DNA of 64,000 nucleotides, from assembly GCF_015529805.1 (NCBI RefSeq), contig NZ_CP064654.1, positions 2,170,001 through 2,234,000 of the forward strand. Direction: 5' to 3'. The notes beneath the pieces were generated by a model. That model was not told where the DNA came from. It saw only the letters and a list, made by a program, of their open reading frames with translations, and ran no database searches. Below are positions 30,207-61,981 of the stretch, piece after piece; within the stretch, counting starts at the first letter, position 1; each line of letters starts with the position of its first letter. The position numbers and the translations under genes were made by a program. Source of the stretch: Qipengyuania soli (GTDB lineage: Bacteria > Pseudomonadota > Alphaproteobacteria > Sphingomonadales > Sphingomonadaceae).

Positions 30207-30248
30207 GCGACTGCTCCTCTCCGGAAATCACTTGACTGCTATGACATC

Positions 30249-30274: not shown

Positions 30275-30287
30275 GAAAGGATCGAAA

Positions 30288-35707: not shown

Positions 35708-35712
35708 CGTAC

Positions 35713-45205: not shown

Positions 45206-45226
45206 ATTAGCTATTGCTACATTAGC
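45206..45226. promoter_or_regulatory. Variant ATTAG-type operator between dsrE3A and the deacetylase gene
   Basis: ATTAG (45206-45210), six bases, then CTACAT (45217-45222) resembles the ATTAG-N6-CTAAT palindromes of the other sulfur promoters. It overlaps a second symmetry, GCTA (45210-45213) with TAGC (45223-45226). A full half-site TACATTAG is at 45218-45225. It lies about 40 bases before dsrE3A. Confidence 0.45.
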
Positions 45227-45350
45227 AAATGCGAAACTATAGCAAGGATCGAGGCTTGTCCATAGAACGCCTCGCGAGGGGAGAGTACGACTGCAAGCGA
45301 CGGCTGATCACGTCCGAAAGCCAGCCTTTCCGCGGCTCGCGCGACCCGCG

Positions 45351-46466: not shown

Positions 46467-46492
46467 TATACATTAGCTTTATCTAATGTATA
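46467..46492. promoter_or_regulatory. Perfect palindromic operator before the lipoate-assembly operon
   Basis: The ten-base arms TATACATTAG (46467-46476) and CTAATGTATA (46483-46492) are perfect inverted repeats around a six-base spacer. They lie 32 bases before the TTG start of the first radical SAM gene. This is the best copy of a motif also seen at 50663, 61962 and, in altered form, 45206. A dimeric winged-helix repressor such as the ArsR protein at 57800 is the likely binder (inference). Confidence 0.7.
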
Positions 46493-46523
46493 ACGAGGCA
46501 GAGTTCGTAAGGAGAGACGGGCT

Positions 46524-47561
46524 TTGGACTGGATGGAAAGACTGGAAGCGATCGAGCCGCTCGAGGATGCGGAGTTCGATCCCTCGCTCGTTTACGCGAT
46601 GGAGGCCAATGCCGCCAAAGCGCTGTCCCGGCCGATCCGCTTCTCCACTCCGACCTTCAAGGAATACCAGAGCGACGAGCTCAAGGGCTGCGGCAAGAAC
46701 AGCTTCCCCGCCTTCTCGATCACGGCGGGCGGCTGTGCGCTCAACTGCGACCATTGCCAGAAGAAGATCCTCGAGCCGATGATCCCCGCGACCAGTCCCG
46801 AGATGCTGGAACAGAAGGTCCGCGACCTCATCATGCTCCAGAACCTGCAAGGCTTCCTGCTGTCGGGCGGGTCCAACCGGCGCAACGAGATCCGCTACGA
46901 ACGCTACCTACCGGTGGTCGAGAAGCTGAAGAACGAATTCCCGCACCTGCGGGTCGCCATCCACACCGCCCTGCTCGACGAAACGCTGGCCAAGAGCATG
47001 GAAAGCGCGGGCGTCGATACCGCGATGATGGACGTCATCGGGGCGCAGGAAACCATCAACCAGGTCTACAAGCTCGACCGCCCGGTCGAGGATTTCGAGG
47101 CCACGCTTGCCGCGCTGTGCGCGACCTCGATGGAGGTCACGCCGCATATCGTTGTCGGCCTGCACTATGGCCAGATTCTCGGCGAGGCGAACGCGCTCGA
47201 TATCATTGCACGGCACGATGTCGGCTCGCTGGTGCTGGTGGTGATCATGCCGTTCTACGCCAAGCCGGGCACCTTCACGACGCCTTCAACTTCGGACGTC
47301 GGGCGCATCTTCATGGAAGCGCGGCGGCGCCTGCCCGACAAGCCGGTGCTGCTTGGCTGTGCCCGCCCGCCGGGCATGCACAAGCGTGTGACCGATGCCT
47401 ATGCGGTCATGGCCGGCCTCGACGGCATCGCCTTCCCCGCCGACGGCGCGGTCGCGGTTTCGCAGGCGATCGGGCGCAGCTTCGAACAGGAACATGCCTG
47501 CTGCTCCATCAAGCTGGGGCAGGCCGGCGAAAAGGCGATCCGCGTCGCCTGCGCCGCATGA
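46524..47561 (+). CDS. Radical SAM lipoyl synthase component (LipS1/LipS2 type, smaller)
   Basis: This 345-residue radical SAM protein has the cluster motif Cys71-x3-Cys75-x2-Cys78 in GGCALNCDHCQKK. It resembles one of the paired LipS1/LipS2 lipoate synthases that insert sulfur into octanoyl-lysine in sHdr-linked pathways; which of the two it is, I leave open. The TTG at 46524 lies nine bases after AAGGAG. The first ATG is three codons later and too far from it. The larger radical SAM gene follows after 25 bases. BioB-like proteins are the alternative, but the context argues against that. Confidence 0.82.
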   Translation: MDWMERLEAIEPLEDAEFDPSLVYAMEANAAKALSRPIRFSTPTFKEYQSDELKGCGKNSFPAFSITAGGCALNCDHCQKKILEPMIPATSPEMLEQKVRDLIMLQNLQGFLLSGGSNRRNEIRYERYLPVVEKLKNEFPHLRVAIHTALLDETLAKSMESAGVDTAMMDVIGAQETINQVYKLDRPVEDFEATLAALCATSMEVTPHIVVGLHYGQILGEANALDIIARHDVGSLVLVVIMPFYAKPGTFTTPSTSDVGRIFMEARRRLPDKPVLLGCARPPGMHKRVTDAYAVMAGLDGIAFPADGAVAVSQAIGRSFEQEHACCSIKLGQAGEKAIRVACAA

Positions 47562-47586
47562 GAGAGAAAACGGGAGAGTATCGCCG

Positions 47587-48879
47587 ATGAGTTGCCTGAA
47601 GAACGAAAGCGAGCGCACTTCGATTACGGGCACGGGCGGCGCGGACTTCAATGCCGCGGTCGCCATGCAGCCGCGCGTCCCCGATTTCATCGCGCCCGAA
47701 TTCCGCAACGGCGGCCGGGTCAAGAGCAGCGCGGTCCCGCCGACCGGCGTCTATCGCCCGAACAACAATATCCAGACGCCCAACATGACCTCGCCCGAAT
47801 ATGTGCAGATCAGCACGGCGGCGGCGATGACGCTGGGGCTGATGCCCGGCTCGATGCACGGCTGTTCGTGCACCCGCTGCCTCAACCTGCTGCTGACCTA
47901 TCCCGAGGGGTGCCGCGCCAATTGCGCCTATTGCGGCCTTGCCCGCCACCGCGAGGCCGACCGCGACTATGCCGACCGCAACTTCATCCGCGTCGACTGG
48001 CCTGCGGTGCCGATGGCGCAGATCGCCGAGATCGTCGGCCGTGACGGGGCCAAGAGCCCGTTTCACCGCATGTGCATCTCGATGATCACCCACCCCAAGT
48101 CGGACGAGGACACCTTTGCCGTCCTCAAGACCTGGACCGACCACGTCTCTCCCGACGACATCCCGGTTTCGATCCTCTCGAACCCCACGACCATGCAGCG
48201 CGCGGACGTCAAGAAGCTGCACGAGATGGGGTCGGACATCTTCACTGTCGCGCTCGATGCGGCGACGCCGGAAATCTTCGACCGCGTGCGCGGCAAGGGC
48301 GTGCAGAGCCCGCACAACTGGGCGAAGTACTGGGAAATCCTCGAGGATGCGCGCGACATCTTCGGGCCGAAGAAGTTCGGCGCGCACATCATCGTCGGCA
48401 TGGGCGAAACCGAGAGCGAAATCCTGCATCTCGTCCAGAAGCTCGTCGACATGGGCGGTCACAGCCACATGTTCTGCTTCTTCCCCGAGAAGGGCAGCCT
48501 GATGGACCACCTGCCGGCGACCCCGCGCGACCAGTGGCGGCGGGTACAGCTTGCCCGCTACATGATCGACTATTGCGGCGTGCGCGTGGAGCAGATGAAG
48601 TTCGACGAGCATGGCCGCGTGGTCGACTTCGGCCTGCCTTCTGCCGAGGTCGACATGATCATCGACACCGGCATCGCCTTCCGCACCAGCGGTTGCCCGG
48701 GCAAGTTCGCCGAGGACATTTCCGCCTGCGACCGCCCCTATGGCGACAGCCCCGTCTCCGACATCGCCAGCTACCCCTTCCAGCCGGAAGGTGCGCACAT
48801 GAAGAAGATCCGCACCCAGCTGGGCCGGGTCCGTCCGGGCGAGGAATACGAGCCCGGCGAAGAATTCGAGGAACTGTGA
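47587..48879 (+). CDS. Radical SAM lipoyl synthase component (LipS1/LipS2 type, larger)
   Basis: This 430-residue radical SAM protein has the SAM cluster at Cys109, Cys113 and Cys116 in EGCRANCAYCGLARHR. Three extra cysteines just before it (93, 95, 98), and more in SGCPGKFAEDISACDRPYG near the C terminus, are candidates for an auxiliary cluster that gives up sulfur, as in lipoyl synthases. GGGAGAG precedes the ATG. The stop overlaps the ligase start (TGATG). The pair of dissimilar radical SAM genes next to a lipoate ligase is the hallmark of the LipS1/LipS2 route. Confidence 0.84.
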   Translation: MSCLKNESERTSITGTGGADFNAAVAMQPRVPDFIAPEFRNGGRVKSSAVPPTGVYRPNNNIQTPNMTSPEYVQISTAAAMTLGLMPGSMHGCSCTRCLNLLLTYPEGCRANCAYCGLARHREADRDYADRNFIRVDWPAVPMAQIAEIVGRDGAKSPFHRMCISMITHPKSDEDTFAVLKTWTDHVSPDDIPVSILSNPTTMQRADVKKLHEMGSDIFTVALDAATPEIFDRVRGKGVQSPHNWAKYWEILEDARDIFGPKKFGAHIIVGMGETESEILHLVQKLVDMGGHSHMFCFFPEKGSLMDHLPATPRDQWRRVQLARYMIDYCGVRVEQMKFDEHGRVVDFGLPSAEVDMIIDTGIAFRTSGCPGKFAEDISACDRPYGDSPVSDIASYPFQPEGAHMKKIRTQLGRVRPGEEYEPGEEFEEL

Positions 48880-49940
48880 TGGGCGCGAAGTTCAGGGTCG
48901 TCGACACCGGGGTTCGCACGGGCCGCGAGAACATCGCTCTCGACAAGGCGCTGATCGAGGCGCGGCTGGCAGGCGACATCGGCGACACGATCCGCTTCAT
49001 CCAGTTCGAACCCTGCGCGCTGGTCGGCCGTCACCAGGACCTGGCGCAGGAGCTCAACCTCGACGCGTGCGCCGCGCGCGGCGTGCAGACCGTTCGCAGG
49101 ATGACCGGCGGCGGGGCGATCTTCATGGACGGCGGCCAGCTCGGCTGGGCGCTGGTTTGCGACAAGCGCGTGTTCGGGCAGGTCACCCTCCCCGATGTCA
49201 CGAGGCTCATCTGCGAAGGCATTGCCGCAGGGCTGTCGAAGCTCGGTGTCGATGCCCGCTTCCGTCCGCGCAACGATATCGAGATCGAGGGACGCAAGGT
49301 TTCCGGCACCGGTGGCTTCTTCGACGGCAATATCCTCATCTTCCAGGGCACGGTCATCCTCGACCTCGACCCGGCTGCGATGATGGCGGTGCTGAACGTC
49401 CCGCAAGCGAAGCTGGAAAAGCGTCAGCTGGCCGATGCCGGCGCGCGCGTGACCTCGCTCAAGGCGGAATTGGGCGAGATGCCTTCGCTCAACAGGGTGA
49501 AGATGCTGCTCATCGAGGGGCTCGAGGAAACGCTCGGCATCGAGACTTTTGCCGAGGAACTGACCGAGGGCGAACAGACCCGCGCCAACATCGCCTATGC
49601 CGAGGAAATCGGGACGCAGGAGTTCGTCGAGGAAATCTGCAACCCTGCGCGCGAGAAGGACGTGCTCACCGGCCAGAATCCCGCGCGCAACCTGACCGCC
49701 TATGTGCGGGTCGACGGCAACCAGGACAGCCGCATCCGCGAGGTCCTGTTCGTCGGCGACGTCTTCGTCACCCCGCCCCGCGCCCTGCTCGACCTGGAAT
49801 CGCACCTCCGCGGAACGCAGCTCGAAGATGTCGAGCGCAAGACCGCGGAATTCTTCGAGGGTTCGGGCATCTCCATGCTCGGGCTGGAACCGCGCGACTT
49901 CGCTGCCGCGGTGATGGACGCAGCCTGCCAGCCAGCGTGA
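48879..49940 (+). CDS. Lipoate-protein ligase of the sHdr-linked type (sLpl(AB)-like)
   Basis: This 353-residue ligase attaches lipoate or octanoate to a target lysine. The N-terminal catalytic half has FEPCALVGRHQD, RRMTGGGAIFMDGGQLGWAL, and RNDIEIEGRKVSGTGGFF with the catalytic lysine region. The C-terminal half (about residue 230 on) contains the accessory domain found in LplA/LplB. It overlaps the radical SAM stop and its own stop overlaps the next start, giving tight coupling. The target is most likely the LbpA encoded 7.4 kb downstream. Confidence 0.87.
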   Translation: MGAKFRVVDTGVRTGRENIALDKALIEARLAGDIGDTIRFIQFEPCALVGRHQDLAQELNLDACAARGVQTVRRMTGGGAIFMDGGQLGWALVCDKRVFGQVTLPDVTRLICEGIAAGLSKLGVDARFRPRNDIEIEGRKVSGTGGFFDGNILIFQGTVILDLDPAAMMAVLNVPQAKLEKRQLADAGARVTSLKAELGEMPSLNRVKMLLIEGLEETLGIETFAEELTEGEQTRANIAYAEEIGTQEFVEEICNPAREKDVLTGQNPARNLTAYVRVDGNQDSRIREVLFVGDVFVTPPRALLDLESHLRGTQLEDVERKTAEFFEGSGISMLGLEPRDFAAAVMDAACQPA

Positions 49941-50635
49941 AGCAGCTAACCGTCATCCAGCATACTTCGGCCGATTACCTCGGCCTGATCGAGGACCACC
50001 TCGAAGGGCGGCAGATCCGCTTCCATTACCATCGCCCATTCACCGAGGCGGGGAAGGTCCCGCAATTCGCGCAGGTCGGTGACGGGCTGATCCTGCTCGG
50101 CGGGGGTCCTTGGGGAAGCGCGGGGGTGCGCGACGTACCAACGCTAGCCGAAGAAGTCGCGCTTGCGCGGGCCTGCTACATGAGCGGCGTGCCGATGATC
50201 GGCATCGGCCTGGGCGCGCAGATCGTGGCGCTGGCCTGCGATGGATCGGTCGAGGAAGCGCCGCTGACTTTCACTGCGGAGGAGGCCGTCCGAGTCGCGG
50301 ATGACGCATTGGCGGGGTTCATGCCCGAACGCTGGCTCAACCCTGTCTACATGCGCGACCGCCCGGTGCCGCCGTCCTTTGCGCAGACCTTGGCAATCGA
50401 TCCGGAGGGGCGCCCTTCAGCCTTCCAGGTCGGCACGAACATTTTCGGCTTCACGGGCCACCCCGGCTTCAAGCGCGCCATGGCCGAAGACCTCATCATG
50501 GAGTTCGAGGAAGTCCCCGAAAAGCCCGGCGCGGCGCTCGATGCCCTGGGCATGCGCAAGAACGACATCGCCGACGCGCTGGTCCCGATGATGACGGGAA
50601 TCGTGCAGCTGACCGGCTGGATGGATGCGGGTTGA
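49937..50635 (+). CDS. Class I glutamine amidotransferase-like protein lacking the nucleophile
   Basis: This 232-residue protein has the class I amidotransferase fold: LILLGGGPWG, the nucleophile elbow GIGLGAQIVALA and a late FTGHPGFKRAM. In active enzymes the elbow carries Cys and the HP pair is followed by Glu. Here Gly91 and Gly177 take those positions, so glutaminase activity is not expected. It starts with GTG in a GTGA overlap with the lipoate ligase, so the two are made together. A partner or ligand-binding role in lipoate assembly or LbpA handling is possible but unproven. Confidence 0.82.
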   Translation: MKQLTVIQHTSADYLGLIEDHLEGRQIRFHYHRPFTEAGKVPQFAQVGDGLILLGGGPWGSAGVRDVPTLAEEVALARACYMSGVPMIGIGLGAQIVALACDGSVEEAPLTFTAEEAVRVADDALAGFMPERWLNPVYMRDRPVPPSFAQTLAIDPEGRPSAFQVGTNIFGFTGHPGFKRAMAEDLIMEFEEVPEKPGAALDALGMRKNDIADALVPMMTGIVQLTGWMDAG

Positions 50636-50662
50636 AAAGAAGCGGGTCCCTGCCCTTGCTTA

Positions 50663-50678
50663 ATTAGTATATTCTAAT
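50663..50678. promoter_or_regulatory. ATTAG-N6-CTAAT palindrome before the hdr operon
   Basis: ATTAG (50663-50667), six bases, CTAAT (50674-50678) forms a perfect five-base inverted repeat in a short AT-rich island. It lies 52 bases before the dsrE3B ATG and 27 bases after the amidotransferase-like stop. It marks a separate promoter for dsrE3B-hdr-lbpA. Confidence 0.6.
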
Positions 50679-50730
50679 ATGATTGAGTCGCACGACCCCG
50701 GAATACGGGGCGGCAATGCGGAGAGAGAAC

Positions 50731-51111
50731 ATGGCCGACAAGCTCGTCATCATCATGGCGAACACCGATCCCGCCAACGGCGAGGAACTGGGTGCCCCCA
50801 TCTTCCAGGCCACCGTGGCCGCGGCCATGGAATACGAGGTCGAGGTCATCTGCACCGCCACCTCGGGCAAGCTGATGAAGAAGGGCGTCGCCGAAAAGCT
50901 GGTCGTGAAGCCCGGTTCGCCGAAGACGGTCTACGACTTCATCAAGGATGCGCACGACGCGGGGGTGAAGTTCATGTGCTGCTCCCCCAACCTCGACCTG
51001 TTCGACATGACCAAGGACGATCTTATCCCCGAGTGCTCCGACATCGTCGGGGGCGCCTACCTGATCGAACAGATCATGGAGGAAGACGACACCAAGGTGC
51101 TGACCTACTGA
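50731..51111 (+). CDS. dsrE3B: DsrE3B-type sulfur carrier
   Basis: This 126-residue DsrE-family protein has LVIIMANTDPANGEELGAPIF and an adjacent cysteine pair Cys83-Cys84 in FMCCSPNLDLF. The pair aligns with the single reactive Cys of DsrE3A (shared LDLF context). Cys41 and Cys102 are also present. It probably hands sulfur to or from the sHdr complex. GGAGAG sets the ATG at 50731. It heads the hdr operon and lies ten bases before shdrC1. Confidence 0.87.
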   Translation: MADKLVIIMANTDPANGEELGAPIFQATVAAAMEYEVEVICTATSGKLMKKGVAEKLVVKPGSPKTVYDFIKDAHDAGVKFMCCSPNLDLFDMTKDDLIPECSDIVGGAYLIEQIMEEDDTKVLTY

Positions 51112-51121
51112 GGACGGGACG

Positions 51122-51886
51122 ATGGGCGCGATAGACACCTCCACCCGTGTCGAGAAATACATCGGCGACCCCGTAGAGGGAACGCAGGAAGTTCCCCGCG
51201 CCAAGCTCGAGAAGATCTTCAACGACATCCAGTCGGACCTGCGCTTCGACCACGAGCTCAACGGCTGCCTCAATTGCGGCATCTGCACCGCAACCTGCCC
51301 CGCCGCGCACTATTACGACTTCAGCCCGCGCGAGATCGTCCAGCTGCTGTGGACCGAGAATCTCGAGGGGATCTACGACGCGATGCAGGAGAAGATCTGG
51401 TCGTGCGCCCAGTGCTACACCTGTGCGGCGCGCTGCCCCTTCGGCAATTCGCCCGGAGGCCTGGTGATGCTGATGCGCGAGGCGGCGATCAAGCACGGCA
51501 TGGAAAGCGCCAAGAGCGTGCTGCGTCCCTTCAGCCGCGTCATGCTCAAGCTGATCTCGACCGGCAACCAGCTGTCGCCCGACATGATCAACCCCGACCA
51601 TTTCGGTGACTGGGGTCCGAACATCTCGAAGATCGATGCGCCGCTGCAGGTGCTGCGCCGGGCCATCCCTATGCCCACGCTCAACACCATCAAGACTGCG
51701 TGGGAGACCAATCTCAAGACCTCGGTCGAACTCTACACGATCTGGGAGGAGAGCGGCGTTCTCGACCAGCTGGAGACCATCGACGAGAACCTTTTCGACG
51801 TGATCGAGGACATCATGGACGAGAAGCGGGACGAGTGGGACGAGTTCCTCGAGGACATGGAAGACGACGATGACGACGATGATTGA
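51122..51886 (+). CDS. shdrC1: sHdrC1, iron-sulfur subunit of the sulfur-oxidising Hdr-like complex
   Basis: This 254-residue HdrC-type protein has two cubane cluster motifs, Cys49-Cys52-Cys55-Cys59 and Cys95-Cys98-Cys101-Cys105. It would pass electrons between sHdrA and sHdrB1. The C-terminal 40 residues are helical and very acidic, ending with seven Asp in a row, an unusual tail. It is in the standard order C1-B1-A-hyp-C2-B2 of sHdr clusters and lies 11 bases before shdrB1. Confidence 0.93.
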   Translation: MGAIDTSTRVEKYIGDPVEGTQEVPRAKLEKIFNDIQSDLRFDHELNGCLNCGICTATCPAAHYYDFSPREIVQLLWTENLEGIYDAMQEKIWSCAQCYTCAARCPFGNSPGGLVMLMREAAIKHGMESAKSVLRPFSRVMLKLISTGNQLSPDMINPDHFGDWGPNISKIDAPLQVLRRAIPMPTLNTIKTAWETNLKTSVELYTIWEESGVLDQLETIDENLFDVIEDIMDEKRDEWDEFLEDMEDDDDDDD

Positions 51887-51897
51887 GGACAGGGCCC

Positions 51898-53286
51898 ATG
51901 TCTGACCCGACACCTACCGACGGCGAACGCTTCACCGGCCACGGCGCCGAATGGCGCGACAGCAACCTGTCCGCCGCCGACGCCGCGCAGGCGACTAGCT
52001 GGGTCGAACAGAAGATCGACAAGCGCTCGATGCTCACCAACAAGGACCGCGTCCACGACATCCGTGACGCCATGTGGGAGCTGGAGAAAGACGGCCAGAT
52101 CAAGGTCCACCGCGTCGAAGACCAGCACGCCCCGCGCATCGCCAAGACGCTTTACGGCTGGGAAAAGAAGATCCCGACCCGCCAGCTGTGGCACCACAAG
52201 AGCTGCGGCCAGTGCGGCAACATCCCGGGCTATCCCACGGCGCTGCTGTGGATGATGAACGAGATGGACATCCCCTATCTCGACGAGACCGACCAGACGA
52301 GCTGCACCGCCTGGAACTACCATGGTTCCGGCATCGGCAATATCGTCAGCCTTGCCGCGGTTTTCCTGCGCAACTTCCACCAGGCCTATGTCTCGGCCAA
52401 GGCGGAGGGGCTGCCCGAGGGCTATTACTATCCGCTGGTCCACTGCGGCACCTCCTTCGGCAATTACAAGGAGGTGCGCGAGTACCTGCTGCTTTCCGCA
52501 TCGCTGCGCGAGAAGGTCACCAAGATCCTCGGCAAGCTCGACCGGCTGGTCGACGGGAAGCTGCTGATCCCCGAAGAGATCGTCCATTATTCCGAGTGGG
52601 TCCACGCCATGCGCAAGGACATCGCCGCGCGGCAGGTGTTCGATGTCTCGAACGTGCGCGCCACGATCCACCCGGCGTGCCACGTCTACAAGATGATCCC
52701 GCAGGACGTGATCTACGACGACGAGGTGCTCGACGGGAACCGCGTCGCGGTCTCGACCGGCATCATCCAGGACCTCGGCGCACAGGTGATCGACTATTCG
52801 ACCTGGTACGACTGCTGCGGCTTCGGCTTCCGCCACATCATTTCCGAGCGCGAGTTCACCCGCAGCTTTGCCATCGACCGCAAGATCAAGGTCGCGGTCG
52901 ACGAGGCGCATTCGGACGTGATGATCGGCCATGACACCGGCTGCATCACCACGCTCGACAAGAACCAGTGGATCGCCAAGGCGGACGAGCGCAACGCGGG
53001 CAAGGACTACTCGCTGCCGGTGATCGCCGACATCCAGTTCGCCGCGCTCGCCTGCGGTGCGCACCCCTACAAGATCGTCCAGTCGCACTGGCACGCTTCG
53101 CCGATGGAGCGCCTGTTTGAGAAGATGGGCATCGACTGGCAGGCGCGCGAGGCCGAGTTCAAGGAATACCTGGAGCAGGTGAAAGCGGGCAAGCAGGACA
53201 ACCTCTACGACCCGCGCCGCCGCATCACCGGCGGCCCCGGCTACATCCCGCCCGAGAAACGCAAAGCAATCGAGGCACGTCCGTAA
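51898..53286 (+). CDS. shdrB1: sHdrB1, catalytic-type subunit of the Hdr-like complex
   Basis: This 462-residue HdrB-type protein is expected to hold the unusual cluster at which disulfide or persulfide chemistry occurs. Visible cysteines are Cys103 and Cys106 (KSCGQCGN), Cys136, Cys183, Cys261 and the CC pair 306-307 (YDCCGFGFRH), followed by HDTGC. The long N-terminal extension of about 90 residues before the first Cys is typical of sHdrB1. The ATG at 51898 follows an AGG-rich site. Its stop overlaps the shdrA start region. Confidence 0.92.
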   Translation: MSDPTPTDGERFTGHGAEWRDSNLSAADAAQATSWVEQKIDKRSMLTNKDRVHDIRDAMWELEKDGQIKVHRVEDQHAPRIAKTLYGWEKKIPTRQLWHHKSCGQCGNIPGYPTALLWMMNEMDIPYLDETDQTSCTAWNYHGSGIGNIVSLAAVFLRNFHQAYVSAKAEGLPEGYYYPLVHCGTSFGNYKEVREYLLLSASLREKVTKILGKLDRLVDGKLLIPEEIVHYSEWVHAMRKDIAARQVFDVSNVRATIHPACHVYKMIPQDVIYDDEVLDGNRVAVSTGIIQDLGAQVIDYSTWYDCCGFGFRHIISEREFTRSFAIDRKIKVAVDEAHSDVMIGHDTGCITTLDKNQWIAKADERNAGKDYSLPVIADIQFAALACGAHPYKIVQSHWHASPMERLFEKMGIDWQAREAEFKEYLEQVKAGKQDNLYDPRRRITGGPGYIPPEKRKAIEARP

Positions 53287-54332: not shown

Positions 54333-54336
54333 GATC

Positions 54337-55203
54337 ATGGGCGCACGGGCCAACCCTTCTGCCTACTACCCCGGCGAGATCGATCTCGCCGTGCGGCTCG
54401 ACCTCGATGGCGAGCGGCTGGGCCAGGCATTGTCGGGAATGCTTGCGTCGGCCGAAGCGCATGGCGGGATCGAGAAGATCGTCGAAGCGCTCAATCTCAA
54501 GACCGAACTTTTCGCCGATGCCTTCGCCGACGGCGCGAAGGACCTGACGCCGGAGAACTTCCTCAAGCTGCTGATGTTCATGCCGACCGTGCGCCGCCGG
54601 GTGGGCGACTACCTCGAGGGTGCCAACTTCCTGCACATGAAGCAGGCTATCGGCGAGCTCCTTGCAGAAGGCGACACCGACGAGCGCATCGCGCGCTTCA
54701 CCGCCGCCTTTCCCGCCAGCAAGCGCCACCGCTGGGTGCGCGACCTTGCCTGCGAGATCCTCCACAATTCGCGCCGCGAACTCTACCCGCTGATGACCCG
54801 CTGGGTCTGGGACCACAAGGCGAACTCGGGCGTGCTGCGCGAAATCTGGTTCGCCGACGATGTCGACAACATGCTGATCGACGTGGCCGACAACTACGCG
54901 ACCTTCCTCAAGCTGCGCGAGGAACTGGCCGGCTACCTGACCGACAATGGCGTGTTTCGCGATGTGCCCTGCTACGTCGATCTGGTCTGCGCGCAGGTCT
55001 ATGCCGGTTATATCGCCAGTCAGGGCGGAGCTTTCCTCAAGGCCGATTTCGCGTCCGAGCAGGACAGCTTCCTGTTCGTCCTGCGCCTGCTTGGCCTCGA
55101 CGGCGTGCAGGCCAAGGCCGCCGATGTCTCGGCCCGCGAGGATGACGATGCGATCGATCTGTCCGACATCATGACGACCTCCCGACTGATGGGGAACGCC
55201 TGA
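54337..55203 (+). CDS. Conserved hypothetical protein of sHdr clusters (Hyp)
   Basis: This 288-residue protein between shdrA and shdrC2 matches in position and size the hypothetical protein always found there in sHdr loci. It is helix-rich and soluble-looking, with only two cysteines at DVPCYVDLVCAQV and no recognised cofactor motif. The N-terminal ANPSAYYPGEIDLAVRLDLD and the segment NFLKLLMFMPTVRRRVGDYL stand out. Gaps of four and one bases to its neighbours show co-expression. A structural or assembly role is likely, but the function is not known. Confidence 0.85.
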   Translation: MGARANPSAYYPGEIDLAVRLDLDGERLGQALSGMLASAEAHGGIEKIVEALNLKTELFADAFADGAKDLTPENFLKLLMFMPTVRRRVGDYLEGANFLHMKQAIGELLAEGDTDERIARFTAAFPASKRHRWVRDLACEILHNSRRELYPLMTRWVWDHKANSGVLREIWFADDVDNMLIDVADNYATFLKLREELAGYLTDNGVFRDVPCYVDLVCAQVYAGYIASQGGAFLKADFASEQDSFLFVLRLLGLDGVQAKAADVSAREDDDAIDLSDIMTTSRLMGNA

Positions 55204-55204
55204 C

Positions 55205-55945
55205 ATGCCCATCCACGAAAAGAGCCTGATCCGCCCGGAAAACCTCTCGACCCACGACAATCTCGTGATCGACGGAGTGGACGTGTCGGGCGATTTCTCG
55301 ACCTTCATCCGCAGCCGCGTGGTCACCGACTACAACGAGGATTTGCAGGACGAGATCGCCGCCATGCCGGGCGGCGAATACATCCACCGCTGCTGGCAAT
55401 GCGGCTCCTGCACCAACAGCTGCACGGTCAATGCGGAGAACCCGGACTTCAACCCGCGCTACTGGATCTACCTCATCCGCATGGGGATGGAGAGCGAGCT
55501 GCTGCGCGACAAGGACATCATCTGGCAGTGCGTCAGCTGCAACAAGTGCACCAGCGCCTGCCCGCGCGACGTCGTGCCCGAAGGGGTGATGAAGGCGACC
55601 GCGCACTGGCTCGAGATGAAGGGGCACACGCCGAAGTCGAACTCACTGATCTTTGACGAGATATTCACCGACCAGGTGGTCGAATATGGCCGTATCGAGG
55701 ACGGCCGGGTTCTCATGGAATTCATGAAGAAGACCGACCAGCCGCTGCTGCAGGACTGGCTGGTCGATCTCGTCAAGAAGCTGGTCAGCGGCCTGCCGCT
55801 CAAGGCGCTCAGCAAGATGGGCTGGTCGACGCTGTTCCACCCCAAGACTTCAGACTGGTCGAAGGCGCGCGATGCCCTTCGCGAACACATTGCCGAAGAA
55901 AAGGCCAAGCAGCACGCAGCGCTGGGCATGGACCCGGCCGAGTAG
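55205..55945 (+). CDS. shdrC2: sHdrC2, iron-sulfur subunit of the Hdr-like complex
   Basis: This second HdrC-type subunit has 246 residues and two cluster motifs: Cys63-Cys66-Cys69-Cys73 (CWQCGSCTNSC) and Cys109-Cys112-Cys115-Cys119 (CVSCNKCTSACP). It pairs with sHdrB2. It lacks the acidic tail of sHdrC1 and ends instead with a mixed-charge helix. It lies one base after hyp and nine before shdrB2. Confidence 0.93.
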   Translation: MPIHEKSLIRPENLSTHDNLVIDGVDVSGDFSTFIRSRVVTDYNEDLQDEIAAMPGGEYIHRCWQCGSCTNSCTVNAENPDFNPRYWIYLIRMGMESELLRDKDIIWQCVSCNKCTSACPRDVVPEGVMKATAHWLEMKGHTPKSNSLIFDEIFTDQVVEYGRIEDGRVLMEFMKKTDQPLLQDWLVDLVKKLVSGLPLKALSKMGWSTLFHPKTSDWSKARDALREHIAEEKAKQHAALGMDPAE

Positions 55946-55954
55946 GATCGAGAG

Positions 55955-56893
55955 ATGCAGGACAACCGCAAGGAACGGTACAAGACGGTCGCTTACTACC
56001 CCGGCTGCGCGCTGGAGGGTACCGGCCAGCCCTATGACATCTCGACCCGCGCGGTCGGCAAGAAGCTCGGCCTCAAGCTCGAGGAAGTGAAGGACTGGAA
56101 CTGCTGCGGCGCGATGGAGGTCAAGAACATCGACCTCGAGGTGCAGACCTATCTTTCCTCGCGGGTGATGAGTCAGGCGGTGCACAAGAACAAGGCCGAG
56201 GTCGTGATGGCGCCGTGCAACGGTTGCTACCACAACCTCAAGAAGGCCGAATACGACCTCAGCCACAAGGAAAAGTCCAAAGCCACGGTCGAGAAGATCA
56301 GCGCCAAGGCCGGGCATGAAGCCTATCATCCGGGCGAGATCGAGACGATCCATGCGCTCGACTGGATCAAGTTCGGCTATGGCGAGGAAGAGCTCAAGGC
56401 CAAGATCAAGGGTGGCCTCAAGGGGCTGAAGGTCGCGAACTACTACGGCTGCATGTACACGCGTCCGCGCCACATTTTCCCCGAGAAGGGCCACGGCGGC
56501 GACAGCGAGAGCTTCAAGGACCCGCACTACATGGACGACCTGCTCGCCATCGCGGGGGCGGAGAATGTCGAATTCCCGCTGAAAACAGCCTGCTGCGGCG
56601 GGGCGCACACGCTGTCGGACAGCGACATGTCGACCAAGCTGGTGCTCAACATCCTTGAGGCGGCGGAAGCTGCGGGGGCGGAGGTTATCGCCACCGAATG
56701 CCCGACCTGCCATTCGGGCCTCGAAATGCACCAGATCCGCGCACTCAAGAAGCTGTCGAAGGATACCAAGGTCAAGGTCGTCTACTTCACCCAACTGCTC
56801 GGCCTCGCCATGGGCCTGTCTCCGCGCAAGGTCGGGCTCCACGCCAATGTCTCGCAGTCGATCCCGCTGCTGAAGGCAAAGGGGATCGCCTGA
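55955..56893 (+). CDS. shdrB2: sHdrB2, second HdrB-type subunit of the Hdr-like complex
   Basis: This 312-residue HdrB-type subunit has two complete CCG domains. The first has Cys18, Cys50-Cys51, Cys88 and Cys91; the second has Cys166, Cys213-Cys214, Cys249 and Cys252. These build noncubane clusters in HdrB. Because all ligands are present, it is a strong candidate for the active site where LbpA-bound sulfur is processed. Two bases separate it from the next gene. Confidence 0.94.
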   Translation: MQDNRKERYKTVAYYPGCALEGTGQPYDISTRAVGKKLGLKLEEVKDWNCCGAMEVKNIDLEVQTYLSSRVMSQAVHKNKAEVVMAPCNGCYHNLKKAEYDLSHKEKSKATVEKISAKAGHEAYHPGEIETIHALDWIKFGYGEEELKAKIKGGLKGLKVANYYGCMYTRPRHIFPEKGHGGDSESFKDPHYMDDLLAIAGAENVEFPLKTACCGGAHTLSDSDMSTKLVLNILEAAEAAGAEVIATECPTCHSGLEMHQIRALKKLSKDTKVKVVYFTQLLGLAMGLSPRKVGLHANVSQSIPLLKAKGIA

Positions 56894-56895
56894 CC

Positions 56896-57336
56896 ATGCG
56901 TAGCATCGCCGAGATCGAGCAGTGGCTGGAGACGGGCGAACGTTCGCCCGACCCGCTCGACCATGCGGCAGAGCTGCTCCAGGCGAGCGAAGACGTGCTC
57001 GAGAACTGGATCGTCGCCCATGGCGGCACCCCTACCGACGAGATGCGCGAGGGGTTTCGTCTGCTTGCACTCCACCGCCAGGGTGCGAAGGGTGATCCGA
57101 GTTTCAACGCCTGCCGCGAGACCTGTCGCGAGGTCGCCTATCACTACAATCTCGTCAGTATGAACGCCGCCGACCCCTGTATCGGGAGCACTGTCGCCAT
57201 GATGCGTCTGGTGACAAAGCACCTGGTGCTGTTTATCGGTGGGAAGCTTCAGGAAGCGGGTCTGGGGGACTTCTGCTGCTCCTCGCGCCCGATCAGATCC
57301 AAGCCCGACCGCAAAGTCGACTATCTGGGAGTGTAA
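56896..57336 (+). CDS. Cysteine-containing protein of unknown function between shdrB2 and lbpA
   Basis: This 146-residue protein was not recognised. The N-terminal half is helical and acidic (IEQWLETGERSPDPLDHAAELLQ). The C-terminal half has cysteines in FNACRETCREVAYHYN, DPCIGS and DFCCSSRP, and a lysine/arginine-rich end. The pattern could bind a metal or cluster or carry sulfur. It sits two bases from shdrB2 and one base from lbpA, so it is certainly part of the operon. The ATG at 56896 is chosen from context; the frame itself is open further upstream. Confidence 0.8.
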   Translation: MRSIAEIEQWLETGERSPDPLDHAAELLQASEDVLENWIVAHGGTPTDEMREGFRLLALHRQGAKGDPSFNACRETCREVAYHYNLVSMNAADPCIGSTVAMMRLVTKHLVLFIGGKLQEAGLGDFCCSSRPIRSKPDRKVDYLGV

Positions 57337-57337
57337 C

Positions 57338-57775
57338 ATGCCAAGCGTACGCGGATGCAACCTGCCCGACGACCTGCTCTACGACGTCGACAACCACATC
57401 TGGATCAAGGAAGAAGGCGACGGCAACATCCGCATCGGGATGACCGCCGTGGCGGTCGCCCTAGCCGGCGAACTGGTCGCCTTCACGCCGAAGAAGCCGG
57501 GCAAGGAAATCAAGGCCGGGCGTTCCTGCGCGATCGTCGAAAGCGGCAAGTGGGTCGGTCCGGCCAAGACCCAGGCCGGCGGCGAAATCGTCGCCGTGAA
57601 CGAAGACCTGGTGGCCAAACCAAGCCTTGCCAACGAGGATCCCTACGCGAACTGGATGGTCATTCTTGCGCCGGAGGACTGGGACAGCGTAAAGGGCAGT
57701 CTCACACCCGGTAGCGAAGTTGCCGGACCCTACGAAGCGAAGATGGATGAAGACGGGTTCGCCGGTTGCGGCTGA
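57338..57775 (+). CDS. lbpA: Lipoate-binding protein LbpA (GcvH-like) of the sHdr pathway
   Basis: This 145-residue lipoyl-domain protein resembles glycine cleavage H protein but is the form dedicated to sulfur oxidation. The lipoylation lysine is Lys71 in VESGKWVGP. The family loop GMTAVAVALAGELVAFTPKKPGKEI precedes it. It shuttles sulfur intermediates on its lipoyl arm to the sHdr complex. A C-terminal glycine/cysteine end (GFAGCG) is notable. It follows the unknown gene by one base; the LipS-type proteins and ligase upstream are its probable modifying enzymes. Confidence 0.93.
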   Translation: MPSVRGCNLPDDLLYDVDNHIWIKEEGDGNIRIGMTAVAVALAGELVAFTPKKPGKEIKAGRSCAIVESGKWVGPAKTQAGGEIVAVNEDLVAKPSLANEDPYANWMVILAPEDWDSVKGSLTPGSEVAGPYEAKMDEDGFAGCG

Positions 57776-57799
57776 TGCCCGCAGTTGAAGGAACGGCAA

Positions 57800-58129
57800 G
57801 TGGAACTTCCACTGGAATTGATGAAGGAAAATGCCGGTCGCGCTTCGGCCTTGCTGAAGTCGATGGCCAATGAATCGCGCCTGATGATCCTGTGCCAGCT
57901 GTCGCAGCAGGAAATGACCGTCGGCGACCTGACCAAGAAGATCGAACTTTCGCAATCAGCCCTGTCGCAGCATCTCGGGATCCTTCGACGGGAGAAGCTG
58001 GTGAAGACCCGGCGGGAATCGCAATACGTCTGGTATTCCATCGACAGCGAGGACGCGAAGGCGGTAATCGGTACGCTCTACGACCTGTTCTGCGCCGAGT
58101 GCGAGATCGACAACAAGGCCAATTGCTAG
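57800..58129 (+). CDS. shdrR: ArsR family persulfide-responsive repressor (SqrR/sHdrR-like)
   Basis: This 109-residue winged-helix repressor has two cysteines, Cys32 (MILCQL) and Cys98 (LFCAEC), 66 residues apart, exactly the spacing of the sulfide/persulfide sensor SqrR. A third Cys101 and a terminal Cys109 are extra. The recognition helix is LSQSALSQHLGILRREKLV. The frame can start at TTG 57785, but GTG 57800 lies seven bases after AAGGA. It is the last gene of the hdr-lbpA operon, which suggests feedback control, and it probably binds the ATTAG-type palindromes (inference). Confidence 0.86.
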   Translation: MELPLELMKENAGRASALLKSMANESRLMILCQLSQQEMTVGDLTKKIELSQSALSQHLGILRREKLVKTRRESQYVWYSIDSEDAKAVIGTLYDLFCAECEIDNKANC

Positions 58130-58141
58130 AACCAGCTCATT

Positions 58142-58480
58142 TCACAGGCAGTGGATCAGCACCCTGATCCTCGCCTCGTGAAATGCTTTCCAGCGATCCA
58201 TGATCCGTTGCTCGACGACCTCGTCGGCAGGTGACGCGGCCGCTGCGTGGAACGCGTCGATAAGGGGAAGCAGCTGATCCTTGAGCTCGATCGTTCGCAA
58301 GTCCCCTGGCGTCCAGCCGATGTAGAGCGCATCGTGCCGCAGCTTCTCAGGGTCGCCGATCGCTGCCGCCATTTCCGCCAGCTTGCGGACACGCACGAGG
58401 TCTTCGCGCGCCAGATGCGCCTGGAAATAGCTGTCGGACCGCTCGGCAATGCCATGCAGATAGGTTTCGAGGGGCGTCAC
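58142..58480 (-). CDS. Small protein of unknown function downstream of sulP
   Basis: This 112-residue protein was not recognised. It is mostly helical, rich in Ala, Arg and Glu, with a single Cys near the end and no membrane segment or signal peptide. It starts with GTG in a GTGA overlap with the SulP stop, good evidence that it is a real, translationally coupled gene. It may serve the transporter or be a metabolic helper. No function is assigned. Confidence 0.65.
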   Translation of the reverse strand: MTPLETYLHGIAERSDSYFQAHLAREDLVRVRKLAEMAAAIGDPEKLRHDALYIGWTPGDLRTIELKDQLLPLIDAFHAAAASPADEVVEQRIMDRWKAFHEARIRVLIHCL

Positions 58481-60294
58481 TTTGCACCTCCGGTCACGAT
58501 ATCGGGCTTCGACAGATGTCCTTCGCTGGCGGCAGCCGGCGCAAGTTTCTCGAACGCCTCGTTCTGCGACAGGAATATCTTTCCGCGCAGTTCGTCGAGC
58601 AGGTTCGATCGCGCGAGGCGATCCATCACTGGTCCCTTCACTTCGGAAAGGTGCAGTATCACGCCCGAATCCGCGAGGCGGCGGTTGAGCGCCTCGAGCA
58701 TTTCGAGGCCCGTTGCATCAACCCAGTTCACCGCCGAACACATCAGCACCAGCTCGCGCACTTCGGGGTTCTTGGCCACTTGGTCGAAGACGAAATCCTC
58801 GAACCAGCGCGAGTTGAGATAGGTCAGCGATTCATCGATCCGGATGGTCAGCAGGTGCGGAGCGACCAGCACCTCGTGCCGGCGCACATTGCGGAAATGC
58901 TCGGAATGGGGGATGCGTCCGACGACCGCAGCATGCGGGCGCGAGGCATGCCACACCAGCAGGGCGAGGCTTATCGCGACCCCCGCCAGAACACCCGTCT
59001 CGACGCCGTCGGCAAGGGTGATGGCGATCGTCGCCGCAATGCCGGCAAAATCGCGCTTCGAATAGCGCCAGAGCTCGCGCGGCTTGTCCAAGTCGACCAG
59101 CGAGAGGACGGCCACGATGATGGTCGCGGCCAGTGTCGCAAGCGGCAGGTAGAACAGGAACGGTGTCAGCAGGATCGAGGCAAGCGCCATGCCTATAGCG
59201 GTGTATGCACCCGACGCCGGCGTTTCCGCGCCCGCATCGTAGTTTACGACCGAGCGCGAGAAACCACCCGTTACGGGAAATCCCCCCGACATCGACGACA
59301 GCACGTTGGCCGAACCGAGAGCCACCAGTTCCTGGTCGGGGTCGATCCTGCGACGGCGTTTGGCCGCCAGCGTCTGCGCGACCGATATCGACTCGACGAA
59401 ACCGATTATCGCGATGAACAGTGACCCGACAAGGAGCTTAGACCACAGCACCGGGTCCCACTGCGGAAAGACCAGGTGGGGCAAGCCGATCGGAATGTCT
59501 CCCACCGTCTTGACGCCCTTTGCAGGCAAGTCTGCCGCCGCGACGACAATGGTTGTCAGGAGGATGGCGACCGCGGGCGCCGCCTTGGCCATCAATCCCG
59601 CGGCCTGCCGGCGTATCCCTCGCCTGACGAGGAAGAGCTTCAGACTGCTGCGCGCCCATACGAGGAAGAGGATCGTGCCGAGACCGACGCCAAGAGTGTA
59701 AGGATTGGCATCTCCCGCATGTCTGAGCAGGGTGCTGCCGATCGCATAGAGATCCTCTCCTTCCGCCTTCACCCCAAGTATGTGCTTGAGCTGGCTGGCA
59801 GCGATCAGGATGCCGCTGGCGCTGATGAAGCCGCTTACCACCGGATGGGAGAGCAGGTTGGCGAGAAACCCAAGTCTGAAGATGCCCATGGCGAGCAACA
59901 TCAGGCCTGAAATCATCGCCAGCGCGATGGCAGCGGCGAGATATTCGGGCGATCCGGCCGTCGCCACGCCGCCTGCCGCTGCGGCAGTCATCAGGGAAAT
60001 GACGGCGACGGGCCCGACCGAGAGGACCCGGCTGGTCCCGAACACGGCATAGGCGAGGAGCGGCAAGAGCGAGGCGTAGAGACCGACGACCGGCGGTAAC
60101 CCGGCGAGGAGGGCGTAGGCCAGGCTCTGGGGAATGAGCATGACCGTGACGATCACCGCAGCGACCAGGTCACGAGATAGCGCTAGCCGGCTGTAGGTGC
60201 GGCTCCATTCTAGAATGGGAAAATAACGCTGCAGCGACGCCAACCCGTTCACCGACGCGGAGGTCTTGGCGGCGGGAGGCGTATCCTGGAGCAT
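58477..60294 (-). CDS. SulP family anion transporter with STAS domain
   Basis: This 605-residue membrane protein has the SulP core of 12-14 helices. The segments SLAYALLAGLPPVVGLYASLLPLLAYAVFGTSR and SGGFPVTGGFSRSVVNYDAG are typical, and a C-terminal STAS domain (LVLMCSAVNWVDATGLEMLEALN) follows. Relatives carry sulfate or bicarbonate. In this operon, downstream of persulfide-oxidation genes, sulfate or sulfite export is the natural guess. It lies 16 bases behind the DUF442 gene. Confidence 0.92.
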   Translation of the reverse strand: MLQDTPPAAKTSASVNGLASLQRYFPILEWSRTYSRLALSRDLVAAVIVTVMLIPQSLAYALLAGLPPVVGLYASLLPLLAYAVFGTSRVLSVGPVAVISLMTAAAAGGVATAGSPEYLAAAIALAMISGLMLLAMGIFRLGFLANLLSHPVVSGFISASGILIAASQLKHILGVKAEGEDLYAIGSTLLRHAGDANPYTLGVGLGTILFLVWARSSLKLFLVRRGIRRQAAGLMAKAAPAVAILLTTIVVAAADLPAKGVKTVGDIPIGLPHLVFPQWDPVLWSKLLVGSLFIAIIGFVESISVAQTLAAKRRRRIDPDQELVALGSANVLSSMSGGFPVTGGFSRSVVNYDAGAETPASGAYTAIGMALASILLTPFLFYLPLATLAATIIVAVLSLVDLDKPRELWRYSKRDFAGIAATIAITLADGVETGVLAGVAISLALLVWHASRPHAAVVGRIPHSEHFRNVRRHEVLVAPHLLTIRIDESLTYLNSRWFEDFVFDQVAKNPEVRELVLMCSAVNWVDATGLEMLEALNRRLADSGVILHLSEVKGPVMDRLARSNLLDELRGKIFLSQNEAFEKLAPAAASEGHLSKPDIVTGGAK

Positions 60295-60310
60295 CAGGCC
60301 CGTGGAGGTT

Positions 60311-60718
60311 TCACAGCCTGGGGCGAAGCATGGCGAGATCGTAGCCCGCGTCGGTGGCGCATTTGATCCGGTCGTCTGCGCTCAACCCGTGCGGATTGGC
60401 GACCATCCACAGCGCTGTGGCCCGCTGGCCGCTGCCGCAATAGGCGAGGACCGGACCGTCGGCCTCGGCAATCGCCTTGCGCTGGGCTTCGACGGCTTCA
60501 GGGGTGATGCCGCCCGGCACGATCGGGTTATGGACGAATTCCAGACCCGCGGCCTCGACCGCGGCGCGCACGTCATCTGCACAGGGCTGGTCGGGCTTTT
60601 CCCCATCGGGGCGATTGCAGATGATCCGCGCGAAGCCTTGCGCCTTGATCGCTTGGATGTCGGCGGGTGTTATCTGGCCGCGGACGCTAAGCCCTTCGGT
60701 AAGCTGCTTGCATTCCAT
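60311..60718 (-). CDS. DUF442 / Blh-type sulfurtransferase-like protein (TIGR01244)
   Basis: This 135-residue protein has the phosphatase-like fold of the DUF442 domain found fused to persulfide dioxygenases in Blh proteins. The loop AYCGSGQRAT holds Cys94 and Arg99 in a Cys-x4-Arg arrangement, and RIICNRPDGEK is conserved. Here it is a free-standing gene next to a metallo-hydrolase, as if Blh were split in two. It probably handles sulfane sulfur. AAGGA precedes the ATG. Confidence 0.87.
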   Translation of the reverse strand: MECKQLTEGLSVRGQITPADIQAIKAQGFARIICNRPDGEKPDQPCADDVRAAVEAAGLEFVHNPIVPGGITPEAVEAQRKAIAEADGPVLAYCGSGQRATALWMVANPHGLSADDRIKCATDAGYDLAMLRPRL

Positions 60719-60787
60719 GTGGGGGTTCCTTTGCGGGTTTTCCTGTCCGCCTGCTCGGCGGTCACCAACGGATTCTCGTTTGGAGCT

Positions 60788-60988
60788 TCAATTCCTGCAG
60801 GTACTGAGGCCGAGCGGCTTGTAGAGCGGACAAAAGCCGACAATGCTGGTAAGGACGAAAATTGCGGCGACTGCCCCGGCCACGATGGCAAGTGTCCCGG
60901 AGATTGTTCCGGTCAACAGTAGGTAGGCCAGCACGACTGCCACGATGAGACGCAGTGTCCGGTCGATCGAGCCCATGTTCTTGACCAT
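60788..60988 (-). CDS. DUF2892 (YgaP-like) small membrane protein
   Basis: This 66-residue inner-membrane protein of the DUF2892 family, the membrane part of YgaP rhodaneses, has MGSIDRTLRLIVAVVLAYLL, then a second helix, and ends FCPLYKPLGLSTC. Cys53 and Cys64 flank the CPLY-type motif. It sits between the metallo-hydrolase and DUF442 genes. It may anchor sulfurtransferases or help pass sulfur through the membrane (inference). AAGGAGAG sets the start. Confidence 0.88.
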   Translation of the reverse strand: MVKNMGSIDRTLRLIVAVVLAYLLLTGTISGTLAIVAGAVAAIFVLTSIVGFCPLYKPLGLSTCRN

Positions 60989-61012
60989 ACTCTCTCTCCT
61001 TCTCAGCCGGTC

Positions 61013-61948
61013 CTACACGGCGTTGACCGGTATCTTGATGTAGCTGACCCCATTGTCCTCGGGATCTGGAAGGCGTCCGCCGCGGATGTTGACCTGCACG
61101 CTGGGCATGATGAGCTTGGGCATGGCGAGCGTCTTGTCGCGCGCTGTCCGCATGGCGACGAACTCGTCCTCGCTCACGCCGTCCCTCACGTGGACGTTCC
61201 CGGTTCGCTGGAGACCGACGGTGGTCTCCCACGCATACTCGTCGCGTCCCGGGGCCTTGTAGTCGTGGCACAGGAACAGGCGCGTATCCTCGGGCAAGGC
61301 GAGCAGCCGGCGAATGGAGCGGAAAAGCTCTCGCGCATCGCCGCCAGGAAAGTCTGCGCGCGCGGTGCCGAAATCCGGCATGAAGATGGTGTCGCCGACG
61401 AAAGCCGCGTCGCCGATGACGAATGCCATGTCCGCAGGCGTGTGTCCCGGCACGTGCAGCGCAATCGCATCGATGGTGCCGAGCCTGAAGGTTTCGCCGT
61501 CGTCGAACAGGCGATCGAATTGCGAGCCGTCACGCTGGAAATCGGTGCCGGCGTTGAAGAGCTTGCCGAATACGTCCTGCACCCGGATGATGTCGCGTCC
61601 GATAGCCAGCTTTCCGCCGAGTTCACTCTGGAGATATGGGGCGGCAGAAATGTGGTCGGCATGGGCATGCGTCTCGATCAGCCATTCGACCTTGAGGTCG
61701 TTCTTGCGCACGTATTCGACGATCAGGTTCGCTGAGCCGTGCGAGGTTCGTCCCGCCGCCGCATCGTAGTCGAGAACCGAGTCGATGATCGCGGCGACAT
61801 TGGTCGCCGGATCATGGACGACATAGCTGACGGTATTGGTCGCCTCGTCGAAGAAACCCGCGATCGATGGCCGCTTGGCCTTGTCGGCGCGTGCCTCTTC
61901 GATCTGCCTTGCGGCTGCCGCGAGGACGGTGTCACTTGAAAAGTCCAT
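61013..61948 (-). CDS. Persulfide dioxygenase-type MBL-fold hydrolase (ETHE1/Blh-like)
   Basis: This 311-residue metallo-beta-lactamase-fold protein has ETHAHADHISAAPYLQ (His94, His96, Asp98, His99), LHVPGHTPADMAFV, FVGDTIFMPDFGTARADFPGG and a late FLCHDYK. These match persulfide dioxygenases and their Blh relatives, which oxidise glutathione persulfide to sulfite using one iron. The frame reaches ATG 61963, but the ATG at 61948 has AGAGG and is chosen. It heads the operon DUF2892-DUF442-sulP-small unknown, under an ATTAG-type palindrome. Confidence 0.88.
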   Translation of the reverse strand: MDFSSDTVLAAAARQIEEARADKAKRPSIAGFFDEATNTVSYVVHDPATNVAAIIDSVLDYDAAAGRTSHGSANLIVEYVRKNDLKVEWLIETHAHADHISAAPYLQSELGGKLAIGRDIIRVQDVFGKLFNAGTDFQRDGSQFDRLFDDGETFRLGTIDAIALHVPGHTPADMAFVIGDAAFVGDTIFMPDFGTARADFPGGDARELFRSIRRLLALPEDTRLFLCHDYKAPGRDEYAWETTVGLQRTGNVHVRDGVSEDEFVAMRTARDKTLAMPKLIMPSVQVNIRGGRLPDPEDNGVSYIKIPVNAV

Positions 61949-61961
61949 CACTGCCTCTGTC

Positions 61962-61981
61962 ATATTATGATTATCTAATAT
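61962..61981. promoter_or_regulatory. ATTAG-type palindrome before the persulfide dioxygenase operon
   Basis: ATATTAT (61962-61968), six bases, CTAATAT (61975-61981) matches in six of seven arm positions and has the same six-base spacer as the palindromes at 46467 and 50663. It begins 14 bases before the chosen start of the hydrolase, where a bound repressor would block transcription, and could also influence the divergent moaA. Confidence 0.6.

Follow-up and report, generated by a model that had tools for sequence, protein, structure and literature searches.

Two regulators of Hyphomicrobium denitrificans, sHdrR and SoxR, are, in the parts of the papers available to us, sulfane-sulfur-responsive repressors; both bind fragments upstream of lipS1 and dsrE3C in electrophoretic mobility shift assays, and loss of sHdrR derepresses lipS1 and the shdr genes (PMC10451225, PMC12423496). 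TauE and pdo are described as typical targets or neighbours of such regulators, and those linked to shdr genes do not form a single clade (PMC12423496, as far as the available text goes); a TauE transcript is reported, in the accessible part of another study, to rise 2.6-fold with thiosulfate (PMC11582611). In the literature that we could consult, partly in excerpt, only whole promoter fragments are shown to be bound, and we found no operator sequence for sHdrR or SoxR. An operator consensus, (A/T)TTAG-N9-A(T/A), is given for NolR, with DNA contacts at Arg31, Gly46 and Gln56 (PMC8960804, available portion). Here we analyse 64,000 nucleotides of the Qipengyuania soli genome (contig NZ_CP064654.1, positions 2,170,001 to 2,234,000; hereafter the window), in which the palindrome ATTAG-N6-CTAAT precedes genes for lipoate assembly and sulfur oxidation. 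We conclude that ArsR1, a predicted persulfide-sensing repressor encoded at the end of the shdr operon, probably uses the palindrome as its operator. Since repression of the lipS1 and dsrE3C promoters by sHdrR and SoxR is known, the regulatory idea itself is known; what is new is the operator sequence and its conservation, the combination of a NolR-type reading head with an SqrR-type sensor at shdr loci, and the sites at ctaD and DUF3422. A literature search for the motif as a string returned the SqrR form only, and none of the matches listed linked such regulators to ctaD, aa3-type oxidases or DUF3422.

The palindrome and its conservation

The sites in the window are:
46467..46492: operator 1, arms of ten bases without mismatch, 31 bp upstream of the TTG taken as the lipS1 start
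50663..50678: operator 2, before dsrE3-shdr, 52 bp upstream of the dsrE3 ATG
61962..61981: operator 3, before the persulfide-dioxygenase-like gene, overlapping the promoter-like TTGACT-N18-GATAAT
45206..45236: weak cluster of degenerate half-sites upstream of dsrE2

The arms are as the initial annotation described them: operator 1 reads TATACATTAG-CTTTAT-CTAATGTATA and is perfect over ten bases, operator 2 is ATTAG-TATATT-CTAAT with perfect five-base arms, and in operator 3, ATATTATGATTATCTAATAT, 6 of 7 arm positions pair. A variant does exist at 45206-45222, where a fourth copy had been placed, but it is degenerate, with two matches at 2 mismatches. Operator 2 is flanked, by eye, by TTGCTT and TATGAT with a spacer of 16, and a strict promoter scan of the window found a promoter at operator 3 only.

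Such AT-rich symmetry had been expected to be rare by chance, which holds for the exact and the long form; loose patterns are unremarkable. With up to 2 mismatches the window holds 6 matches against 3.9 +/- 1.6 in shuffles, and 16 of 100 shuffles reach 6, so that this level says nothing. Exact copies number 2 in the window and 3 in the 2.91-Mb genome, where a first-order Markov model of the same genome predicts 0.004 and 0.18; two of them precede lipS1 and dsrE3-shdr, and the third, outside the window, precedes a TauE-family gene. The 20-bp form, ATATTAG-N6-CTAATAT, occurs at 7 sites genome-wide with up to 2 mismatches and at none for the reversed control. With exactly 3 mismatches, motif and control have 5 sites each. 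The palindrome is thus real and commoner than chance at exact or long-form stringency. Matches to the core with 1 mismatch before lexA-like (L006) and suf/rrf2-like (L009) genes, both named by eye, were judged to be chance, and a 3-mismatch site was recorded at L080. The SqrR-type operator, ATTC-N8-GAAT, has no exact copy in the window (8 at 1 mismatch vs 16.8 expected) and 11 exact copies in the genome, against 4 for its control.

Comparison of orthologous promoters shows that the motif is kept. A scan for sHdrB1, which finds only relatives sharing six short peptide patterns, gave 56 loci, all metagenome-assembled to judge by their titles, of which 52 have 300 bp upstream of dsrE3 and 54 were assigned an operator class (L026 and L047 were dropped). 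ATTAG-N6-CTAAT precedes dsrE3 exactly in 25 of the 52 and with up to 1 mismatch in 41. The motif was counted within a set of 420 palindromes of similar composition whose spacers span 3-9 bases, all treated alike. Shifted registers of the motif itself reached 13 exact and 30 at up to 1 mismatch (TTAGA-N4-TCTAA) or 0 and 7 (CATTA-N8-TAATG), and the remaining controls at most 2 exact and at most 7 at up to 1 mismatch. These counts, together with the 7 long-form sites against none for the control, lead us to dismiss chance AT symmetry in promoters as practically excluded, even though the loose patterns, taken alone, would allow it.

Elsewhere than in the window, the site precedes lipS1 exactly in 5 of 35 cases and with up to 1 mismatch in 11, and dsrE2 in 0 and 5 of 17; the lipS1 genes of L015, from an uncultured Erythrobacter whose sHdrB1 is 92% identical, and of genome G261 are preceded by the exact core. 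(The names lipS1 and lipS2 follow the NCBIfam models; the labels in the promoter counts ran the other way round.) Upstream of the internal genes hdrA, hdrC2, hdrB2, lpl, lipS2 and lbpA of the shdr loci, no site was found within 1 mismatch of the motif. In 19 of 32 non-redundant shdr sites a TTG starts 8 bases before the motif, and in 31 of the 32 the base directly after it is A. Since the sites were chosen by their core, these flanks alone are independent support; the fixed TTG offset and the following A indicate that the operator would fill the spacer between the -35 and -10 boxes, as in L017 (TTGCGT-N17-TATAAT). Four loci, L042, L057, L059 and L068, carry an exact ATTC-N8-GAAT at the same place before dsrE3 instead of the ATTAG form.

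ArsR1 as the candidate reader

Two ArsR proteins of the window come into question:
57785..58129 (+): ArsR1, helix SQSALSQHL, Cys37 and Cys103, PF01022; predicted persulfide-sensing repressor
35351..35710 (-): ArsR2, helix AQPGLSQQL, one cysteine in the ArsR domain

ArsR1 scores 53.6 bits against PF01022 (cut-off 22), which places it among the ArsR/SmtB winged helix-turn-helix proteins, and its nearest solved structures are HlyU, NolR, SqrR, YgaV and BigR. The SqrR-type cysteine pair ascribed to the ArsR that closes the shdr operon is indeed there: Cys37 and Cys103 align with the cysteines of SqrR and HlyU. Inverted repeats in sulfur-gene promoters, as in the SqrR/BigR/SoxR/sHdrR subfamily, accompany it. 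Its recognition helix is identical to that of NolR, R32, G47 and Q57 align with NolR Arg31, Gly46 and Gln56, and operators 1-3 all fit the NolR consensus on at least one strand. Binding by either ArsR of the window had been allowed for; only ArsR1 has both the fitting helix and the two cysteines, also among all five HTH_5 proteins of the genome (the three outside the window judged by eye), and ArsR2 was therefore rejected. ArsR2 belongs to a second cluster (28926-36351) with an SQR-like flavoprotein, an RND-type pump, a thioredoxin-like and a peroxiredoxin-like protein, names that were given partly by eye; its helix is BigR-like, and the motif scan of the window found no palindrome copy in this cluster.

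The family offers a natural experiment. sHdrB1 was found in 4 of 397 sampled family genomes, one of which is Q. soli, and in none of 9 listed congeners. Thirteen family genomes were compared, an ArsR1-like gene being defined by E<=1e-20, a line set after the values had been seen (the weakest match inside it is 7.9e-21, the best match of a genome outside it 1.6e-12). All the genomes with such a gene have long-form sites: 7 in Q. soli, 4 each in G261 and G099, 2 each in G232 and G408, and 1 each in G180 and G145. Those without it (G112, G308, G339, G367, G388 and G427) have none; for the reversed control pattern, G308, G367, G388 and G261 show a single site each.

Helix and operator also go together at the shdr loci. 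With operator classes assigned by hand (L051 and L061 were moved from weak C-type to other), the A-type operator is present in 43 of 54 genomes. An ArsR was found in 41 of these; all 41 have one with a QSA or QSG helix, against 1 of the 4 genomes with the exact ATTC-N8-GAAT, and in 39 of the 41 the best ArsR has both cysteines. Among ArsR genes elsewhere in these genomes, 15 of 31 of the QSA type carry the motif, 1 mismatch being allowed, in their own promoter, against 0 of 15 others, although 13 of the 15 come from Robiginitomaculum and thus represent few independent events. The promoter interval scanned for this count did not reach far enough into the open frame to include the exact sites preceding the L106 and L114 ArsR genes.

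Several results weigh against ArsR1 acting through this palindrome. With up to 1 mismatch, the 16-bp core shows no enrichment over the whole genome (9 sites vs 11 for the reversed control); operators 1 and 2 lie where the strict scan detected no promoter; and at 11 of the 52 dsrE3 promoters no site within 1 mismatch is present. G145 has shdr genes and a 46% identical ArsR, yet the 20 kb surrounding these shdr genes contain no site even when 1 mismatch is allowed. Neither the Fisher p of 1/1716 (by hand) for sites in 7/7 genomes with and 0/6 without an ArsR1-like gene, nor that of 0.0003 for the association of helix and operator, is corrected for kinship. Moreover, 7 genomes have neither operator type before dsrE3, and a QSA-type ArsR is nevertheless present in 6 of them; this argues against a simple helix-operator rule and would suit a different scenario, in which the palindrome is read by another regulator (ArsR2 or a non-ArsR protein) and ArsR1 merely travels along. 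That scenario is at odds with ArsR1 being the sole HTH_5 protein of the five with this helix and both cysteines, with the sites at the promoters of QSA-type ArsR genes outside shdr loci, and with the absence of long-form sites from the six congeners that lack an ArsR1-like gene; we consider it very unlikely.

With ArsR1 as the reader, the regulation can be pictured as follows. When sulfane sulfur is lacking, an ArsR1 dimer would occupy the palindrome, between or on the -35 and -10 boxes in shdr promoters, and would shut out RNA polymerase; sulfane sulfur would then bridge Cys37 and Cys103 and take ArsR1 off the DNA. Release would switch on the lip genes (lipoate assembly) and shdr-lbpA (cytoplasmic sulfane-sulfur oxidation), including arsR1 itself, as well as the persulfide-dioxygenase/sulfurtransferase/SulP operon and the TauE-type exporter, and probably ctaD and DUF3422. 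DNA binding, repression and the nature of the signal are here inferred from sequence. ArsR1 might instead read the palindrome as an activator or anti-silencer, in the manner of HlyU, its best-scoring solved relative, which according to the available part of the report enhances hlyA from far upstream (PMC4330345). The position of the sites in or on the core promoter at the shdr loci and at operator 3 speaks against this, as does the description, in the portions of the work accessible to us, of Hyphomicrobium sHdrR and SoxR, which act on orthologous promoters, as repressors; we consider activation, too, very unlikely.

A candidate regulon beyond the window

The genes concerned in the window, with operon limits as predicted and functions read from family matches, are:
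46524..50635 (+): lip unit, with LipS1-like, LipS2-like, lipoate ligase-like and amidotransferase-like genes, the fourth gene being one that we take to be amidotransferase-like; the NCBIfam LipS1, LipS2 and lipoyltransferase models match, all below their cut-offs
50731..57775 (+): dsrE3-shdr-lbpA operon, arsR1 last; the first gene is of the DsrE family, the gene order matches other shdr loci, and part of the gene names are presumed
58142..61951 (-): persulfide-dioxygenase operon, four genes including a small open reading frame
61013-61951 (-): persulfide-dioxygenase-like gene, matching the second half of the Blh model, below the cut-off of the fused protein
60311-60718 (-): TIGR01244 sulfurtransferase
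58477-60294 (-): SulP permease
44662..45168 (-): dsrE2, sulfur carrier, NF047629 above cut-off

Between dsrE2 and lipS1 lies a gene with a histone-deacetylase fold (45351-46448, +, PF00850), which recurs in 20 of the 56 shdr loci.

The long-form sites of the genome are:
window 46470: before lipS1
window 50661: before dsrE3-shdr
window 61962: before the persulfide-dioxygenase-like gene
C1:321152: 46 bp before a TauE-family gene (PF01925)
C1:643253: between coxB and ctaD (COX1 match)
C1:1085249: before a DUF3422 gene
C1:1513276 (L007): in the gap between a gene for a small secreted protein (no Pfam match) and an argG-like gene (name by eye)

Six of the seven therefore precede lipS1, dsrE3, the persulfide-dioxygenase-like gene, tauE, ctaD or DUF3422, the TauE-family site, 46 bp from its gene, being the exact copy outside the window. 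The claim that every site precedes a sulfur-oxidation or lipoate-assembly unit stands for the first three; the one at 45206 is weak, and the regulon is likely wider than the window. It appears to take in the persulfide-dioxygenase operon, tauE, DUF3422 and, unexpectedly, ctaD, which encodes subunit I of cytochrome oxidase.

Related genomes bear on this extension. A site precedes a persulfide-dioxygenase-like gene in G232 and G408 (80 and 83% identical) and lies between such a gene (62% identical) and an ArsR gene in G180; G408 has a further site before a TauE-family gene, and G099 one between TauE-family and peroxiredoxin genes. The sites of G261 are at ctaD (a perfect 20-mer), DUF3422, lipS1 and dsrE3, whereas the single long-form site of G145 has a neighbour gene without Pfam match. 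Three genomes with ArsR1 (Q. soli, G232 and G261) have a site in the gap between coxB and ctaD, 21-23 bp upstream of ctaD. The closest 20-mer of this gap has 6 or 7 mismatches in the 6 congeners that lack an ArsR1-like gene, and G408, G180 and G099 have no site in it; in G145 the start of ctaD was not located. The genome of L015 has a site 121 bp before coxB and another just before a molybdopterin oxidoreductase gene, presumably soeA-like; counted up to 3 mismatches, it has 16 long-form sites against 8 for the control. Beside the sulfur island of the same genome, 1-mismatch long-form sites precede L,D-transpeptidase (YkuD) and autotransporter/OmpA genes (L152, 6287 and 12493).

It may be that the functional sites are only those at lip, shdr and pdo, and that those at ctaD, DUF3422 and tauE are coincidental. 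A repressor on a terminal-oxidase gene is odd, G408 and G180 have ArsR1-like genes and no ctaD site, and the aa3 oxidase is unaffected in Hyphomicrobium, in the data available to us. Coincidence would nonetheless have to account for the recurrence of the ctaD site at 21-23 bp in three genomes and for the coxB site in the genome of L015, for the DUF3422 site common to Q. soli and G261, and for the TauE-family sites of Q. soli, G408 and G099, and we regard it as unlikely. The operator between coxB and ctaD leads us to propose that subunit I of a sulfide-sensitive oxidase, and the DUF3422 protein, would be made on demand as sulfane sulfur accumulates. Tentatively, and with somewhat less than even confidence, we suggest that a persulfide-gated ArsR would directly couple sulfur oxidation to the terminal respiratory oxidase, the shdr/lip cassette plugging into a regulon of persulfide defence and respiration that persists in congeners without shdr. 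The sites before the DUF3422 genes, a family of unknown function, at C1:1085249 in Q. soli and C1:339214 in G261 may be a clue to its role.

The gene order of G232 is soeA-like, arsR1, persulfide-dioxygenase gene, moaA (L214, 6194-12616, compared with 39904-63105 of the window). In the window, soeA and arsR1 are separated by the FadL-dsrE2-HDAC-lip-shdr-lbpA block, which is absent from this locus and so behaves as a cassette gained or lost whole.

The predicted off-switch protein would hold its genes silent until sulfur comes, and the same palindrome is found in dozens of relatives, being kept in many proteobacteria with shdr genes. It would give the sulfane-sulfur repressors of the sHdr pathway an operator of defined sequence, with which regulons would become readable from genomes. 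That sites at ctaD and DUF3422 are shared between genomes suggests a sulfur response that also takes in respiration and an unknown membrane protein.

Relation to known regulators

ArsR1 resembles sHdrR and SoxR of Hyphomicrobium, which the available text presents as ArsR-type repressors with two sensing cysteines and with lipS1 and dsrE3C as targets. The systems differ in that transcription of the Hyphomicrobium aa3 oxidase is described, in the same material, as unaffected, whereas a site precedes ctaD in Q. soli; moreover, the Hyphomicrobiaceae loci L042 and L068 have ATTC-N8-GAAT at the dsrE3 promoter. HlyU of Vibrio (E 2e-28) has the same helix and both aligned cysteines; it is, however, an enhancer at a distant site, TAATTCAGACTAAATTA (PMC4330345, from the part available). 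As with BigR and Blh of Xylella and Acinetobacter, Blh-type sulfurtransferase and dioxygenase functions lie under the operator, here as separate genes, but ArsR1 reaches 93.4 bits against a cut-off of 155 for the NCBIfam BigR equivalog and is thus not BigR proper. Nor is it NolR proper: the rhizobial protein shares the helix, the contact residues and a consensus that fits the operators, but is, according to the accessible text, cysteine-free and regulates nodulation genes (PMC8960804), whereas ArsR1 has cysteines and sits among sulfur genes. SqrR of Rhodobacter capsulatus has the aligned cysteine pair and the same 16-bp ATT-N10-AAT frame; its deduced site, ATTC-N8-GAAT in the portion of the report available, differs at the fourth base (PMC9774250), and its helix is RQAAVSQQL rather than SQSALSQHL. 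The change from ATTC-N8-GAAT to ATTAG-N6-CTAAT could thereby be tied to residues of the helix.

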